A stretch of 64,000 nucleotides of DNA from Bdellovibrio sp. (GTDB taxonomy: Bacteria; Bdellovibrionota; Bacteriovoracia; Bacteriovoracales; Bacteriovoracaceae), in assembly GCA_016187935.1 (NCBI GenBank), contig JACPIU010000010.1, positions 186,001 through 250,000 on the forward strand. The letters run 5' to 3'. This document shows positions 3,643-14,404 of this stretch, piece after piece (the first letter of the stretch is position 1; the number at the start of each line of letters is the position of its first letter). The translations under genes and the position numbers were made by a program. The notes beneath the pieces are model-generated. The model did not search any database, had not been told where the DNA came from, and saw nothing but the letters and a program-made list of their open reading frames with translations.

Positions 3643-4437
3643 TTACATTTTCATTTTATGGTGCCATGTACAGCTAGTACCCATCGAGGATTCAAGAGAG
3701 TCTTTCTCAGTATCGAAACTTGATTCAATAATCTCTTGCACCCACGAGCGGATTTCTGCGGTATCAGTTCTGGCCACATCATTTTGGCCAGCATCACGAC
3801 TGGGAGTTAGATGGATCGAGCTGTTGACTCCAATAACTTGTAGTCCATCTGGTGTTTCGATTAAAGCAGGGGAGCCGCTATCTCCAGGAGCGAGGGAGGG
3901 ATAAAAACCACCTTCGGGGTCACTGGGTGAACTATAGTGCGTATCGCTGGAGCTGGTGATTCGGATGGCGGCCTTTTTCAAGTACTCGCCGCCCGGATCA
4001 CCAAAAAAATCTTGCGGACCGTGGCCAGTCAACCAAACTTTCTTGGTTAGATTAATCTTGCTGGCAAGTTTTGCGAAGGGAGGTTTTTGAAACCCTTGCA
4101 CTTCAATGATCGCAATGTCGCGTTTGGATGGAGCATAGTGAATCTGCTTAATTTGAGTGCTTTTTAAAGTGGTATCTTTTATTACTGCGCCGGTCTTGAA
4201 GGCCAATAAATCACCTGGCCGATATTTTTCTTTAGTATTTTCTTCACGCAGACAATGGGCCGCTGTCATGATGAGTCCAGGAGCGATCACGCTTGCCCCA
4301 CAATAATGAAAGCTGACGTCGGCATTTATTCCTTGTAAGGAAAGAATATACGGAAATTCATTTTCTGAGGCCTCTTCACCACCAACTAATGCCCAAGCAT
4401 TGTTACAGAACAAGAGGCATAGAATAAGAATTTTCAT
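3643..4437 (-). CDS. Secreted trypsin-like serine protease (S1 family)
   Basis: I choose the ATG at 4437 because it gives a clean 16-residue signal peptide; an upstream in-frame start at 4488 would add 17 residues that look like leader sequence. The 264-aa product has LVGGEEA as the zymogen activation site and a complete chymotrypsin-type triad: His61 in TAAHC, Asp107 in RDIAI and Ser188 in GDSGSP. It is an ordinary single-domain S1 protease with a short C-terminal extension. It is convergent with the lipoprotein gene. It probably degrades proteins outside the cell or in the periplasm. Confidence 0.9.
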   Translation of the reverse strand: MKILILCLLFCNNAWALVGGEEASENEFPYILSLQGINADVSFHYCGASVIAPGLIMTAAHCLREENTKEKYRPGDLLAFKTGAVIKDTTLKSTQIKQIHYAPSKRDIAIIEVQGFQKPPFAKLASKINLTKKVWLTGHGPQDFFGDPGGEYLKKAAIRITSSSDTHYSSPSDPEGGFYPSLAPGDSGSPALIETPDGLQVIGVNSSIHLTPSRDAGQNDVARTDTAEIRSWVQEIIESSFDTEKDSLESSMGTSCTWHHKMKM

Positions 4438-4548
4438 ATTACGGGATAATGCAGGCCCAAGACCAACTCCAACTACCTTAAAGTGCAATTAATTTTTCGC
4501 AAAGGTGTCTAAAGTTTTGACAGCAAATTGAAATAATGACTCGCCTTA

Positions 4549-7890: not shown

Positions 7891-9909
7891 ATGCTTTTTA
7901 CCCGACTTTTCATGCGTTCGATATTCCTGATCACGGCACTGTTCGAATTGGGTAGCAGTGTCGCTTTGGCCGCTCCAGACCAAGTGAATTGTCCCGATCC
8001 AGAAGCAGGGGTTGAGCTACCGGCGGAATTCACACGATTGGTGGAAGGCCGAATTTATGCAACCGATTGCCCTCTTATCGAGACCTGTCCTGGGAATGGG
8101 AAGAATAAACTATGGGCCCAGGAGAAAGTCGATGCTGATCTGATGCAAGAAGAAATGGCGCGGATCGGGGTTGGGCATGGCCACTCGAAGGTGGCGGTTA
8201 TTGATTCAGGTTTTGATCTCACCACCAATGCCAGATATATGGCCAGTCCTAATCTCAGCGTGAAACCGGGCATTGATGATGCTCTCAGCGATCCTGAAAA
8301 CGATACAGATGGGCATGGTACTGCTGTGGCCTCATTGATAGGTGGTGGGAATGGGATTGGTATTGCCCCTGACGCCAATCTTACGGTGTATGGCATTTCG
8401 GCAAGTGATGCGAATCGTGCCCGAACGACGACCGGCAATGTCTTTAAGAAAAGGATTGATCCCATCAAGCAAGGCATTGAGAAAGCTTGTGCCGAAGGCA
8501 ATGAAGTGATCAATGTTAGTTGGGGCGGGCTATATGATGAGACCGGGGCCATGCAGGATGAACAGGCCGATCCCGATTTTCTTACTCGCCTCGCGGCCCG
8601 CGGTTGTTTAGTCGTCCGTTCGGCCGGCAACATGGGAGTGAGGGTTGACCGGCCTAATGATCCTGATGATGCGTATCTTCGTGTCGAAGCAACTTCACCG
8701 ATTGGTGGGGCGGCGAATTTCTCGGCCAATGGAGAAATCGCAGCACCTGGTACAGGCGTTTTTACCCTAGAAAGCTCGGTCGCCAACTCGGAACGAAAAT
8801 CCACTGCGCGTGAGCGTTGTGAAGGCGATGGCCTGAATAATCCAGGACAATTTGTGAACGGAACAAGTTTTTCTTCTCCGATTGTTGCAGGCATTGCCGC
8901 CCAGGTGATCGGCGTACTGAAGAAAAGTAGTCGTTATGTCGGACTCTCGGGACCTGATCGTATCAAACTCGTCAACCGGATTTTGCGCGCCTCGACGCTG
9001 ACTGATTCGGCGAACGGTTTGCGGGCCCTGATGATCGCTGAGCGCTGGAATGCAAGTACAGAAAGCAGTATTCCAAGCATCGAAGAACTCAAGGCCAGTC
9101 TCAGTAACCCTGAAGATGCCGTTTGTAGTCAGCGCGCAACCATCTGTTCGGCAAGCATTGATTGTAATTCACTCAAAACATGCATCAGTCGGGCACGCAA
9201 AATCGCCGCTCTTTGTGGTTTTTCAGGTGTTGCTCCCGATATTCCGACAACACTCGATCTGATCAAACTAGCACAAGCATCCAATAATCTCGAGCTGGCC
9301 GCAACTCTCTTGAATAAACTGCGCAGCGTACCTGCCTCCAAGCTAAAGGACCTGGCGAAGGCCTCAAAGAAATTCTGGCAGAGTTTCTTCGACGAAGGCC
9401 CTGCTTCTCTCGATTTTGATCTGGTCCGCAAACAGGAATATTATGCTCTCTTTCGCGATATCGTTGGCGTCACAATGCCATTCATCGAAGAGAAGATTCG
9501 TTCAAAGGCGCGTGAGCAAATCTTAAGCACCGATGTCGCCGCTCACCGACCCCAGATCGAGAACTATCGAATCGAGCTTATGCAATCACTCTTCAAGCAC
9601 AAGCTGGCGAATGGACTATTTTACAGAGAAATCGCCTCATCACCCGTGGCAGATTCGCAAACTTTACAGCAAGTTATTTTCGCCGTTCGTGACGCGCAAC
9701 CAAGATTATCTGGAAGCGTCGGCATTCTTAAAAAGGTGATCGCCTCGCCCTCGGCCGATAAAGAGGTGATTGATAATATTCTTTATGCAGTCGAGAGCGG
9801 AAAGCTGCCTCAGGGTGAAGGTACTCAGGTGGTTCGCGCTCTGATTAGATCAGGTAAAGGCTCTCCCGAACAAATTGCCCGTGCCAAGAAACTCGCCTCG
9901 GTGAATTGA
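7891..9909 (+). CDS. Secreted subtilisin-like serine protease (S8) with helical C-terminal region
   Basis: This 672-aa protein has a signal peptide ending near residue 28; the start could also be the Met at position 8. The peptidase S8 triad is present: Asp105 (AVIDSGFD), His142 (DGHGTAV) and Ser326 (GTSFSSP), with oxyanion Asn247 in SAGN. The catalytic domain spans about 95-370. The remaining 300 residues contain four cysteines and then a long, probably all-helical region without a recognised family, perhaps a substrate-binding or attachment module. No obvious SD precedes the ATG. The product is likely an exported degradative protease. Confidence 0.9.
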   Translation: MLFTRLFMRSIFLITALFELGSSVALAAPDQVNCPDPEAGVELPAEFTRLVEGRIYATDCPLIETCPGNGKNKLWAQEKVDADLMQEEMARIGVGHGHSKVAVIDSGFDLTTNARYMASPNLSVKPGIDDALSDPENDTDGHGTAVASLIGGGNGIGIAPDANLTVYGISASDANRARTTTGNVFKKRIDPIKQGIEKACAEGNEVINVSWGGLYDETGAMQDEQADPDFLTRLAARGCLVVRSAGNMGVRVDRPNDPDDAYLRVEATSPIGGAANFSANGEIAAPGTGVFTLESSVANSERKSTARERCEGDGLNNPGQFVNGTSFSSPIVAGIAAQVIGVLKKSSRYVGLSGPDRIKLVNRILRASTLTDSANGLRALMIAERWNASTESSIPSIEELKASLSNPEDAVCSQRATICSASIDCNSLKTCISRARKIAALCGFSGVAPDIPTTLDLIKLAQASNNLELAATLLNKLRSVPASKLKDLAKASKKFWQSFFDEGPASLDFDLVRKQEYYALFRDIVGVTMPFIEEKIRSKAREQILSTDVAAHRPQIENYRIELMQSLFKHKLANGLFYREIASSPVADSQTLQQVIFAVRDAQPRLSGSVGILKKVIASPSADKEVIDNILYAVESGKLPQGEGTQVVRALIRSGKGSPEQIARAKKLASVN

Positions 9910-9945
9910 GTGAGTCCTCCCTCATTGCCTACTAAAATGGGCCGA

Positions 9946-10236
9946 CTATTTCTGCTGTATTTCTGGAATATTAACGATGGCAGGTGATCTGGAAATGCCG
10001 GATTTAGGGTTAGCTTTGACATCTGTAACAGGCAAATTGGCAACAAATTTTTCCATATGCTCGGCCGGTTCTACATCTTCTTCGAGAACAACTGCTGGGC
10101 CTCGGACCAGGGTACACTCAACGCAATCATATCCTTCGGAAGTACTGTCTTTCGACTCATCTGCTGAGTGGCCCAGATCACTCCAAAGGGTGGTGCTAAT
10201 GGCGACCATTAATAGGAACAAAGAAAACCTTTTCAT
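9946..10236 (-). CDS. Small exported protein of unknown function
   Basis: The ATG at 10236 gives a 96-aa protein with a good signal peptide ending near residue 24 (GHSA); an upstream in-frame start at 10296 adds residues that look non-coding. The mature part is short and acidic with a single CVEC cysteine pair and no recognisable domain. It is convergent with the subtilisin gene, 36 bases apart. A function cannot be assigned. Confidence 0.55.
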   Translation of the reverse strand: MKRFSLFLLMVAISTTLWSDLGHSADESKDSTSEGYDCVECTLVRGPAVVLEEDVEPAEHMEKFVANLPVTDVKANPKSGISRSPAIVNIPEIQQK

Positions 10237-10397
10237 GCCTTTTAACCAAGCAATTTTAAGGCCAACAATGAATATTTTAACTGCTTGAAAATACATCTGG
10301 TACTGACATGATAGCGACCAATTAATTGCAACCGATTAAAAATTGATCATGTTCGAGATATACCTTAAAGAGACATCGCACGTTTCTCCGCCGCCGT

Positions 10398-11999
10398 TTA
10401 AGAGGTTTTATGGCGGGCAAAATTGTAAACGATGTTTCGCCCGCTTCCTTTCGATTCAATAATTTTTTCCTCCTGCCACTGTCTGATCCAGGCCTTGGCA
10501 GAAGAAGATCCGATTTGAAACAAATTTTCCACATCGGAACGTTTAAAGACCGGATGTTTGATGGCCAAAATGCTCTGCGGGCCACGACCGATATGATTCA
10601 TAGGCAAAATGATGATACGGTTCTTGGGCAAATCCATGGAGTAGATATTGGCCTGGCATTTTATATCAAACCCTGACTTCCTCAAATTTTTTACAAGTCC
10701 TTTTAAGCGATTTTCACCATCCTCGGGACGATAAAAATCCTGACGATAAATGAAATCAATTAAGGCCCATTTGGATACTCCAATTTCACCGGCCCCCAGA
10801 ATTGATGAGACACATTTCACTTGGAGATCCGTGAGAAGCACAGGATATTGTGAGACCGACTGTTCTGGAAGAACAACGCCTGAATAGAGATCAAAGAGGG
10901 TCCATTTTTCTGACAAAAATTTATGAATAACTTCCGAATAATTCCCGGGGACGATAGTTTCACCATTGATCACCCAGCAATCGTTTTTATTGGGACAATA
11001 TTTCATGTTAAAATGGAGAGTTAATGGAAGTTTCTCGTGAGAGTAGCATTTACCCAGGACATAGCTGACAGGACAAAATGTGATATGGGCACGCGTGGCC
11101 AGTCTTCGTTGAATTGAAACTTCTGTCCCCAGGTTGTATTCGAGCCAATAGTACGTCAGCATTTTTGTATAGGGAGGCATCAGAGGCCACATTTCGGCCT
11201 GGCAACACTGATTGAGATACTTAACTGCCGTCGTGACATCAGACCGCAGGGAATAATAAATTCCCAGAGTGCGATAGAGATAAATATATCTTAAGCTGGA
11301 AGGATTTTTGAGATTCTTTTCGGCTTCACAGGCGTGATAAAAGGCCTTCTCCCACTGTTGCAAATCCATATAGTGAAGAGCGAACCTGAGATGAACCTGA
11401 TCGGAACTCTCATGGCCATTTGCCTGTGCCTCTTGCAACAATTGATTAAGCAACAACTCACAGGCCGGGTAATCATGCAAACCAAAGAGCGCGATAACCT
11501 CATTGATTTTACTGCCCCACCATTCCATTTTATCATCGACTAACGTTTCAGAGGCGTTTTGGGCCGCAATCAAAGCACTTTTGAAATCCTCCATAGTCAA
11601 GTAGAGGTCGGTCAAATAACGCCAGTAAAAAGGCGTGATGGAGAGGGGGGCCTTATTCCGTCTCTTTGCTTCGGAGGTAAGATTGGTGAAAATACGTTCT
11701 GCTAAAAAACGCGCACCATTGTTTTGAAGCATATAGGCCAAACGAAACTGCAATGCCAATTGATCATCAGAGACATTCTGCAATTCAGCAGGAGCAAGTT
11801 CTGGCCCCAAAATTTGCAGAGCACGATCGAGTTCTGAAAGTGTGCGATAGATTTCCGAAATGGTGATGGCATCCCAAGGTTCAACCGCATTGGCCTTTAG
11901 GAACTTTGCCAGCAGAGTTCGTCCTTCTTTCGGCTTACCACCCTTGATGATGTCCCTAATTTTGATCAGTGTTGGATTGCTTTTCAGATTTTCTCCCAA
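10398..11999 (-). CDS. TPR-repeat protein with two C-terminal winged-helix domains (probable regulator)
   Basis: This is a 533-aa cytoplasmic protein without a signal peptide. Residues about 20-320 are helical and TPR-like, with repeated pairs such as EIYRTLSELDRALQ and LGIYYSLRSDVTTAVKYL. Residues 385-460 resemble an OmpR-type winged helix: LTDLQ, then VSKWALIDFIY, then RLKGLVKNLRK, with a strand ending in a Y-x-M turn. Residues about 480-530 look like a second winged helix, with RSDVENLFQIG and SAKAWI. The start is TTG; no ATG with a better SD is in frame, so the exact start is unsure. It is divergent from the TIR gene with 196 bases between, so it may control it (inference). Confidence 0.7.
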   Translation of the reverse strand: MGENLKSNPTLIKIRDIIKGGKPKEGRTLLAKFLKANAVEPWDAITISEIYRTLSELDRALQILGPELAPAELQNVSDDQLALQFRLAYMLQNNGARFLAERIFTNLTSEAKRRNKAPLSITPFYWRYLTDLYLTMEDFKSALIAAQNASETLVDDKMEWWGSKINEVIALFGLHDYPACELLLNQLLQEAQANGHESSDQVHLRFALHYMDLQQWEKAFYHACEAEKNLKNPSSLRYIYLYRTLGIYYSLRSDVTTAVKYLNQCCQAEMWPLMPPYTKMLTYYWLEYNLGTEVSIQRRLATRAHITFCPVSYVLGKCYSHEKLPLTLHFNMKYCPNKNDCWVINGETIVPGNYSEVIHKFLSEKWTLFDLYSGVVLPEQSVSQYPVLLTDLQVKCVSSILGAGEIGVSKWALIDFIYRQDFYRPEDGENRLKGLVKNLRKSGFDIKCQANIYSMDLPKNRIIILPMNHIGRGPQSILAIKHPVFKRSDVENLFQIGSSSAKAWIRQWQEEKIIESKGSGRNIVYNFARHKTS

Positions 12000-12075: not shown

Positions 12076-12195
12076 AACCCCCTTTCCGGCCTGTATGAGT
12101 TAGAAGCGGACTTCGCCCATGACGATGATTGAAACTCTTACCATTTTATGGAACTATATGTTCACCAAGAGACTCAGAACTTTTCAGGACCTTAG

Positions 12196-13557
12196 ATGGA
12201 CGGTCGTATAATTTTTATTAGTCACTCCAGTAAAGACGCCGAGTGGGCACAGGAAATTCTCGCGGGTCTGGAAAAGAAAAACCTGCCTTGTTGGATTGCC
12301 CCCAGGGATGTTCCGGCGGGAGCTAATTACGCCAGCGTGATTTTACAAGCTCTCACGACTGCCAGGGCCATCGTTCTCCTGCTTACCGAGGAAAGTAATC
12401 AGAGCGTGCAAGTTGCCCGCGAAGTGGATCGGGCGATCAACGCCAAAATTCCCATCATTCCTCTTCGAAAGGCCGAGTTCCCGCTTGCCCCGGCAATGGA
12501 ATATTACCTGTGTAATTGCCAGTGGATTGATGTTAGTAAATGCTCACCCGAGTCCACCATTAAGCAGATTGAGCTGGCGTTACAGAGTGAATTGACAACG
12601 GCGGCGTCTTTGCCAAAACGCACTCGTGGTCCTCTGCTTCGTTGGTGGAATGTACTTGCCATCATCTTCCTTTTTCTCTTAGTTGGACTGACTCTTCTGA
12701 GACAAAAAGGGATAATTGATTTCGGCCATCCACGGCTGGACAAGCTAAATCAAGCGAACCTGCAAGCAATGAGCGATAAAGAGCTTCATAATATGCAGCT
12801 AGATATTCTGGCCAGACGGGGTTTTGTCTTCAGTGATCCCGCCGAGGTTAAGTACATTGAAAAATTTTGGTGGTACCGCCCCCTCAAAAGAGAGGGGACT
12901 TCTGATGAAAACAACACCTATATTAAAAATAAAATTTTGACTCAATTCGAAAAAACAAATTTAAAAATACTTGAGCAACTCCGACGCGATAGAATTATGG
13001 AGCAATTAAGCGAAGGTAATCTGGAATCCACCTTCCCAGATCAAAAAATTGCATTGTATTTTTGCAAACAACGGGACGTATCCGAGATCAACAACTTCAT
13101 TACTTTGGTGCAAGATACAATGCAAAATATTCTGATTGAAAAGAATCATGTGATGTTTAACGTCAATATCGCCAAATGTAATAATGAGCGGAACTGGAAA
13201 GGGGTGAACAAATTTGCCCGCAAAAATGATACCACCTACGCTATTGGCCTTGTGCTGGAAGAACGCTCAGGGCCGTGGAATATTGTGATCAATCCCGTGG
13301 GGGCTGAAACTATTTTGGATGCGACCTTCGCAACACGCTTTAAGGCCTCTTTTCCTGCGGACGATGGAGCCGTGACCATTTCCCGACCAGTTGGAAGTAC
13401 GAGTGATGTCTCAGGAGTCTACATGCTAACAGTGTCAGGTCCATTGAATGATACGACTTCAGTGAATATTTTCGCAGATCATCTTGCGACCCAGTTGGCA
13501 ACCACCCTGCTTGAGATGCTCGCGCTCGCGAAAGATAAAAGCACGAAGACAAAATAA
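12196..13557 (+). CDS. Membrane-anchored TIR-YARHG domain protein
   Basis: This 453-aa protein starts with a bacterial TIR domain (residues 3-130): IIFISHSSKD, the BB-loop-like PCWIAPRDVPAG, and Glu76 in VAREVDRA, which aligns with the catalytic glutamate of TIR NADases. A basic stretch KRTRGPLLRWW precedes one hydrophobic span (about 152-168), so TIR is predicted cytoplasmic and the rest extracytoplasmic. Residues about 185-255 match the YARHG domain: LHNMQLDILARRGFVF and WWYRPL. The last 190 residues are unrecognised. A weak SD, AGGAC, lies before the ATG. It probably senses something outside the membrane and acts on NAD or assembles partners inside; this is inference. Confidence 0.85.
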   Translation: MDGRIIFISHSSKDAEWAQEILAGLEKKNLPCWIAPRDVPAGANYASVILQALTTARAIVLLLTEESNQSVQVAREVDRAINAKIPIIPLRKAEFPLAPAMEYYLCNCQWIDVSKCSPESTIKQIELALQSELTTAASLPKRTRGPLLRWWNVLAIIFLFLLVGLTLLRQKGIIDFGHPRLDKLNQANLQAMSDKELHNMQLDILARRGFVFSDPAEVKYIEKFWWYRPLKREGTSDENNTYIKNKILTQFEKTNLKILEQLRRDRIMEQLSEGNLESTFPDQKIALYFCKQRDVSEINNFITLVQDTMQNILIEKNHVMFNVNIAKCNNERNWKGVNKFARKNDTTYAIGLVLEERSGPWNIVINPVGAETILDATFATRFKASFPADDGAVTISRPVGSTSDVSGVYMLTVSGPLNDTTSVNIFADHLATQLATTLLEMLALAKDKSTKTK

Positions 13558-13711: not shown

Positions 13712-13750
13712 TTGACGAAAGGAGCTATATTGGTGTAAAATTACCAATAT
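13712..13750 (+). promoter_or_regulatory. Promoter overlapping a perfect palindrome at the toxin-antitoxin start codon
   Basis: TTGACG (13712-13717) and TAAAAT (13736-13741) form a sigma70-like promoter with an 18-base spacer. An inverted repeat with 8-base arms, ATATTGGT and ACCAATAT (13727-13734 and 13743-13750, 8-base loop), encloses the -10 box and reaches into the ATG at 13749. The expected transcription start falls on or next to that ATG, so the message would be nearly leaderless. The palindrome is the natural operator for autorepression by the downstream HTH antitoxin. Confidence 0.5.
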
Positions 13751-14039
13751 GAAGGCAACCTTGGTTCGCCACGAAAAATTTATTGTACGTCGCCGTTATC
13801 TAATTGAGATTTCCGTTTATCAGGTTGCTCGGTCGAGTCATTATAAAGACGGACTTAAGTGGGGCCTTATTTGCGTGGATCGCATTAGTGGCAAGAAGGT
13901 GTTGATGGACAACCATCAACCCAAGAGTCCACACATTCATATTGATGATGACGAAATGCCATATGATTTTAGAGGACTTGATAGGTTAGTTAACGATTTT
14001 AGACAGCTCATTGTGGAGCACATGGGAGTTCAAATATGA
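13749..14039 (+). CDS. TumE-family (DUF6516) toxin
   Basis: This 96-aa protein opens with KATLVRHEKFI and ends with HIDDDEMPYDFRGLDRLVNDF, the arrangement of the DUF6516/TumE toxin family: central H-Y-K-D-G-L-K-W strand, a DNHQ motif, a H-I-H pair and a Y-x-F-x3-x-x-L-x-x-DF end. The family is known as the toxin half of type II modules in which the toxin gene comes first. The stop overlaps the start of the next gene by ATGA. There is no SD at normal spacing, in line with the near-leaderless promoter upstream. It presumably targets a core process; the exact target is not visible from the sequence. Confidence 0.75.
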   Translation: MKATLVRHEKFIVRRRYLIEISVYQVARSSHYKDGLKWGLICVDRISGKKVLMDNHQPKSPHIHIDDDEMPYDFRGLDRLVNDFRQLIVEHMGVQI

Positions 14040-14404
14040 AAAAGCTTGTAGTCTCCTGCAAGACGGCAGATCAGGTTTTTGAAGATTTCAAGAAAGCGGC
14101 CAGTCGTGTGCGCAGGGGAAAGTTTCGCGGTGAGACCGAATATGAAGTCAGCTTTGATAATAAGGCAGACTTTAATCGGTTTGTAAAAAATATTCCCGTG
14201 CTCTCAGCTATTATCATTTTCCGACCTCGCTCAGTTTATGAACTTGCCAAGCTTACAGATGCTGATGTCTCTAATCTCAATAAAGTTATTCAGTTCTTTG
14301 AGGAGATTGGGGTTATTCGCATTAAGACAAGTAGTGTCGGGGGCCGCACTGTCAAATGTCCTCACGTCGAATATGATGAAGTTACCTTTCGACTCGCGGC
14401 CTGA
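14036..14404 (+). CDS. TumA-type antitoxin / winged-helix DNA-binding protein
   Basis: This 122-aa protein is translationally coupled to the toxin (ATGA overlap). Residues about 60-115 form a MarR-like winged helix of the HVO_A0114/TumA type: RPRSVYELAKLTDADVSNLNKVIQFFEEIGVI, followed by a wing and the terminal VEYDEVTFRL. The N-terminal half is basic and may wrap the toxin. Antitoxins of this class usually repress their own promoter; the palindrome over the start codon of the toxin gene is a fitting site. Confidence 0.75.
   Translation: MKKLVVSCKTADQVFEDFKKAASRVRRGKFRGETEYEVSFDNKADFNRFVKNIPVLSAIIIFRPRSVYELAKLTDADVSNLNKVIQFFEEIGVIRIKTSSVGGRTVKCPHVEYDEVTFRLAA

Follow-up and report, generated by a model that had tools for sequence, protein, structure and literature searches.

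A transmembrane TIR protein with a YARHG domain and a predicted amidase-like ectodomain in Bdellovibrio sp.

One gene in the window (the whole 64,000-nucleotide stretch of Bdellovibrio sp. DNA analysed here) encodes a 453-residue protein in which a TIR domain is joined, through a single membrane span, to a YARHG domain and a C-terminal domain with the predicted fold of peptidoglycan amidases. Tentatively, and with somewhat less than even confidence, we read it as a membrane receptor whose YARHG and pseudo-amidase ectodomain would sense the cell wall, and whose clustering would drive NAD chemistry in the TIR domain through Glu76. Transmembrane TIR receptors as a kind are already known; the combination of YARHG and pseudo-amidase in the ectodomain is a new variation.

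Domain architecture and orientation

The gene occupies positions 12196 to 13557 of the plus strand, as do all of its features given below, exactly as stated in an earlier note made on this DNA; it is an open reading frame with protein-level homologues in other genomes, and a ribosome-binding-like AGGA (12186 to 12189) can be read 6 nt before the ATG. The whole-protein structure model has a mean pLDDT of 80.9 and contains a separate alpha/beta C-terminal domain. Profile searches and topology prediction uphold the layout proposed in the earlier note, with the TIR domain inside, one span, and YARHG outside, and the three points on which that note had staked its reading (profile matches, the span and conservation of Glu76) all came out in its favour. 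Matches of the protein to Omp85_2 (E 0.009), poxvirus poly(A) and DKNYY were discarded as chance-level.

The TIR domain (residues 6–115, 12211 to 12540), already recognised in the earlier note, matches the Pfam TIR_2 profile in hmmscan at 67.4 bits, far over the curated cut-off of 28 (E 2e-18), and the corresponding part of the model matches the TIRs of SARM1, SPARTA and MyD88 in Foldseek searches. There is also a weak match to CAP12-PCTIR. Glu76 (codon 12421 to 12423), which had been proposed as a conserved catalytic-type glutamate, is invariant in 11 of 11 family members, whose genomes were also recovered by a profile search that did not require the motif. Ser70, Gln72, Asp78 and Arg79 are invariant alongside it in the family alignment, as is YYLC, which follows the TIR core as part of the family hallmark EYYLCN (residues 102–107, 12499 to 12516). 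Many TIR enzymes carry a WxxxE motif; here the tryptophan position is Gln72 in all 11 members, so enzymatic activity of the domain is likely but not assured. A link of this predicted enzyme to NAD is supported only indirectly, by the invariant Glu76 and by the TPR-S- and RyR-bearing cyclase partners of the relatives described below.

A single span is predicted in the window protein (residues 150–168, 12643 to 12699; hydropathy 2.37; model helix 148–170) and in each homologue, and the protein has no signal sequence at its N-terminus, ahead of the TIR domain. Over the 12 residues flanking the span on each side, the 11 members together carry a net charge of +49 ahead of the span and +13 behind it, a bias that predicts an internal N-terminus and thus a cytoplasmic TIR domain with the ectodomain outside. 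The positive residues noted earlier before the span are in this way borne out across the family, from which the orientation is drawn, the difference in the window protein itself being small (+4 versus +2).

The YARHG domain follows the span (residues 183–261, 12742 to 12978), and comprises four helices in the model. Both motifs pointed out in the earlier note, ARRG (206–209) and WWYRP (225–229), are present, and the score lies around the 27-bit cut-off: 23.6 bits in hmmscan (E 5.1e-5), below it, 26.2 bits in the genome search, and 27.5 bits with frame neighbours. The assignment is nonetheless sound, because L028 and L029, two relatives from the same genus that share this layout, reach 49.1 and 27.3 bits. 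4g2a, a YARHG protein of solved structure, also aligns over this stretch, and we conclude from these comparisons that a weak match marks a real domain. Across 36 genomes, YARHG is matched by these three TIR proteins and by no others, and a literature search found no paper naming YARHG together with a TIR domain. YARHG has been described as an extracytoplasmic, proposed ligand-binding domain acting near peptidoglycan (PMC3355149, PMC3848476).

A C-terminal domain with a predicted amidase fold

The C-terminal part was called unknown in the earlier note, which holds at the level of sequence: its approximately 180 residues have no match in a Pfam search of the protein, and a C-terminal sequence profile found nothing significant in PDB or Pfam. 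It does not hold for the predicted fold. In the model, residues 284–451 (13045 to 13548) form a domain of the order b-a-b-a-b-b-a-b-b-a, and a Foldseek search of PDB returned, beside TIRs, Rv3717, which is a peptidoglycan amidase (E 2.1e-4, probability 1.00, with a modest TM of 0.47 by target). Among viral models the matches include several phage lysins, one AmiC and one MurNAc-LAA amidase. Foldseek prints no query ranges, and the amidase matches were placed at the C-terminus because their alignments run to approximately 190 columns, compared with the 135-residue TIR domain.

Profile comparison points the same way. Against an Amidase_3 profile built from own-family sequences of the same bacterial group, the family profile of the C-terminal domain scores 18.1 in local and 13.6 in global alignment, compared with 17.0 and 8.2 for the best of 100 column shuffles and at most 13.1 and 7.4 for control profiles (TolB, SLOG-like, cyclase, TPR and TIR). 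Five of the ten family C-termini beat at least 299 of 300 of their own shuffles against this profile; that of the window protein does not rise clear of its own, 57 of 300 reaching its score, the signal being that of the relatives, the family profile and the model. On an absolute scale the profile match is weak, with an hhalign probability of about 1 to 2 percent and, in one comparison, E values of 0.01 to 0.07. The alignment is in register over the length of the amidase, with LDPSS in L027 for LDPGHGG and PEVVLEIGF in L032 for PAVLLEIGF. A TolB_N/LpoB-type fold was considered and rejected, since the TolB profile scores 13.1 local and 1.8 global and since Amidase_3 better accounts for the helix that lies between strands 4 and 5.

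The evidence supports, without proving, a predicted Amidase_3 (N-acetylmuramoyl-L-alanine amidase) fold. Both zinc histidines are missing in all ten aligned C-termini, and we therefore read the domain as a predicted pseudo-amidase, probably a peptidoglycan binder rather than an enzyme. The catalytic glutamate of Amidase_3 is retained only in L032, L035 and L029, and the window protein has threonine at this position. A pseudo-amidase-like C-terminus makes an ectodomain that senses peptidoglycan more plausible, and so adds an independent argument to the earlier suggestion of a cell-wall or surface signal, an interpretation that is supported in part overall.

Distribution, tandem cyclases and genomic context

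Ten of 369 genomes from the phylum carry a member of the TIR-span-ectodomain family; all ten belong to one Bacteriovoracaceae-like family, in which such members occur patchily (10 of 129 genomes), and the named relatives belong to Bacteriovoracaceae and Bdellovibrionales MAGs. With the window protein alone as query, no relative was found in the genome or viral collections, the relatives being recovered once a family alignment replaced the single sequence. No full-length relative was found among plasmids. The family has two branches. One is the genus of the window, with one copy here and two in a second genome (G002), and has an intact YARHG domain, whereas in the other, comprising eight genomes of other genera, only the first half of YARHG is left. 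Across the two branches the ectodomains share homology, as seen with hmmsearch (E 2.5e-4 to 7e-4, outscoring each of 900 shuffles) and hhalign (E 1.2e-5).

In all eight loci outside the window's genus (L027, L030, L031, L032, L035, L039, L040 and L041), a class III nucleotide cyclase gene lies directly upstream of the TIR gene, at about −4 to +21 bp and often overlapping it. These cyclases carry TPR-S in eight of eight cases and RyR in five of eight. The cyclase fold is borne out by a structure model (pLDDT 79.0) whose top matches are adenylyl and guanylyl cyclases. In the cyclase motif GxxVNxAAR the usual asparagine is apparently replaced by an invariant cysteine at all eight tandem loci, which makes the nucleotide product uncertain. 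PADLOC returned no match for the three of these cyclases that were scanned. A search of the genomes of the window's genus, that of the window included, with the relatives' cyclase profile returned nothing within E 1e-5, and no such cyclase adjoins the window gene. A stand-alone TPR/SLOG-like/cyclase protein, L050 (G022:C220), has no TIR gene on the stretch read.

TPR-S is predicted to sense NAD-derived signals, and a TPR scaffold was reportedly named as an NAD-signal sensor by Burroughs and Aravind in 2020. In phages, RyR domains bind or cleave 2'cADPR and 3'cADPR, which are products of TIR domains (PMC13232231). By analogy with this binding of cyclic-ADPR signals, the TIR domain may make an NAD-derived signal that is read by the tandem cyclase in the relatives.

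Around the window gene, PADLOC found no known defence systems in the scanned flanks. A secreted-type subtilase (Peptidase_S8, 7891 to 9909) with a long helical C-terminal part and weak similarity to PADLOC protease models is encoded 2.3 kb upstream, and a secreted trypsin-like protease on the minus strand (3643 to 4488) has a weak PADLOC match to LmuA (E 5.6e-9, 33.8 bits) that probably reflects general protease similarity. In the locus of the closest TIR-YARHG relative, L028, a C25 (gingipain-type) peptidase gene (9607 to 11226) lies directly downstream. Downstream of the window gene, two small overlapping genes (13749 to 14404), the second with a winged-helix-type HVO_A0114 match, have a layout resembling a toxin-antitoxin pair. 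The divergent, regulator-like upstream gene (10398 to 11999, minus strand) encodes TPR and an apparent C-terminal winged helix; it was rejected as a partner because it is lineage-expanded, with two copies here and several in G002, and its nearest orthologue (62%, G002) is not near a TIR gene. Synteny around the TIR gene is not conserved with the G002 relative, which, together with the position of that orthologue, is in line with the receptor gene being an accessory gene.

Proposed mechanism and comparison with known systems

In the reading we favour, the four-helix YARHG domain and the zinc-less amidase-fold domain would bind peptidoglycan or a fragment of it, and whenever the wall is altered, for example by damage, by phage entry or lysis, or by remodelling, this binding would change and the TIR domains would cluster. 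Clustered TIRs would then act on NAD+ by way of Glu76, cleaving or cyclising it. The probable product in the eight relatives would be a diffusible signal of ADP-ribose type, for which the cyclase of the gene just upstream would serve as receiver through its TPR-S (and RyR) part; where this partner cyclase is missing, in the window's genus, the output would be loss of NAD+ or a signal to another receiver. The order from wall signal to TIR clustering, NAD-derived signal and cyclase is favoured by the role proposed for YARHG, the binding of TIR products by phage RyR and the prediction made for TPR-S.

Pycsar, which couples a nucleotide cyclase with TIR or transmembrane effectors, suggests the reverse order, where the cyclase would sense and make a cyclic nucleotide and the membrane TIR protein would be an NAD-destroying effector. 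The cyclase gene does come first and is tightly coupled to the TIR gene, and the weak CAP12-PCTIR match fits; we nevertheless regard this order as improbable, because no nucleotide-binding domain is present in the cytoplasmic portion of the TIR protein, the part after the span being predicted extracytoplasmic and the linker from TIR to span being approximately 35 residues in the window protein. It is the cyclase that carries TPR-S and RyR, suggesting that it is the receiver, and both the lack of PADLOC matches for the cyclases scanned and the lack of such a cyclase in the window's genome count against the Pycsar order as well.

It is also conceivable, if rather doubtful, that the protein regulates envelope stress or the life cycle, with the TIR domain acting mainly as a clustering scaffold or slow signal maker for wall remodelling or predation and not in phage defence. 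The absence of known defence systems around the window gene, the replaced tryptophan of WxxxE and the confinement of the gene family to one bacterial family would suit such a regulator, but its patchy presence is a pattern seen more often with accessory genes than with core physiology, and Glu76 is strictly retained. Still less probable is a soluble-type NADase suicide protein that is simply anchored in the membrane, its ectodomain being a tether that senses nothing. Other bacterial TIRs with spans (L034, L036 and L038) do have unrelated or minimal C-terminal parts, whereas the ectodomain here is homologous across the whole family and YARHG is kept in three same-genus copies.

The earlier description of TIR NADases as usually soluble fits only in part, in that membrane-anchored TIRs with different C-terminal parts were found in L034, L036, L037 and L038. 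L034 and L037, from Oscillospiraceae MAGs, are tandem TIR-TM pairs with C-terminal parts that look like repeat or beta-propeller sequence. The genome of L035 encodes a second, divergent TIR-TM protein with a different C-terminus (L011, G024:C153; DUF4160 match).

YARHG is known from receptor-type proteins in which a kinase is followed by a span and YARHG (PMC3355149). The window protein shares with them a cytoplasmic signalling domain, one span and a YARHG domain predicted to be extracytoplasmic, but it has TIR on the cytoplasmic side and carries a pseudo-amidase-like domain after YARHG; the wall-sensing role proposed here would give this orphan domain a testable function. Amidase_3 enzymes such as Rv3717 have the fold and strand order predicted for the C-terminal domain, and differ in the zinc histidines and, outside the three proteins named above, the catalytic glutamate. 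In Thoeris, as proposed here, a TIR protein (ThsB) makes an NAD-derived signal for a separate effector. The present protein differs in its membrane receptor layout, the receiver in the relatives would be a TPR-S/RyR cyclase, and no ThsA-type effector was found beside the window gene by PADLOC in the scanned flanks. With Pycsar the eight relatives share tandem cyclase and TIR-TM genes; unlike Pycsar, they combine a TIR protein devoid of a nucleotide-binding domain with a cyclase that bears TPR-S/RyR and goes unmatched by PADLOC, and the window's genome has no such cyclase. Through the TIR-cyclase pair, a single pathway would combine NAD-derived with cyclic-nucleotide signalling, and the pair offers a direct test of RyR and TPR-S domains as receivers in the cell.

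In animals, PGRP and Toll link a non-catalytic amidase-type wall sensor to immune signalling, with TIR in Toll. An amidase-type ectodomain combined with TIR is a parallel in the way of working; PGRP is of the Amidase_2 type, a different amidase fold, and a common origin of the architecture is not implied. It is possible, though on the unlikely side, that the family is a bacterial analogue of these wall-sensing immune receptors, in which a dead amidase and YARHG would sense the wall across the membrane and lead the TIR domain to produce an NAD-derived messenger; in the relatives this would in turn activate a TPR-S/RyR-gated class III cyclase, forming a two-messenger relay. The sensing of infection by bacterial TIR systems is usually intracellular, and a wall-type ectodomain would move it to the envelope, in parallel to Toll and PGRP.
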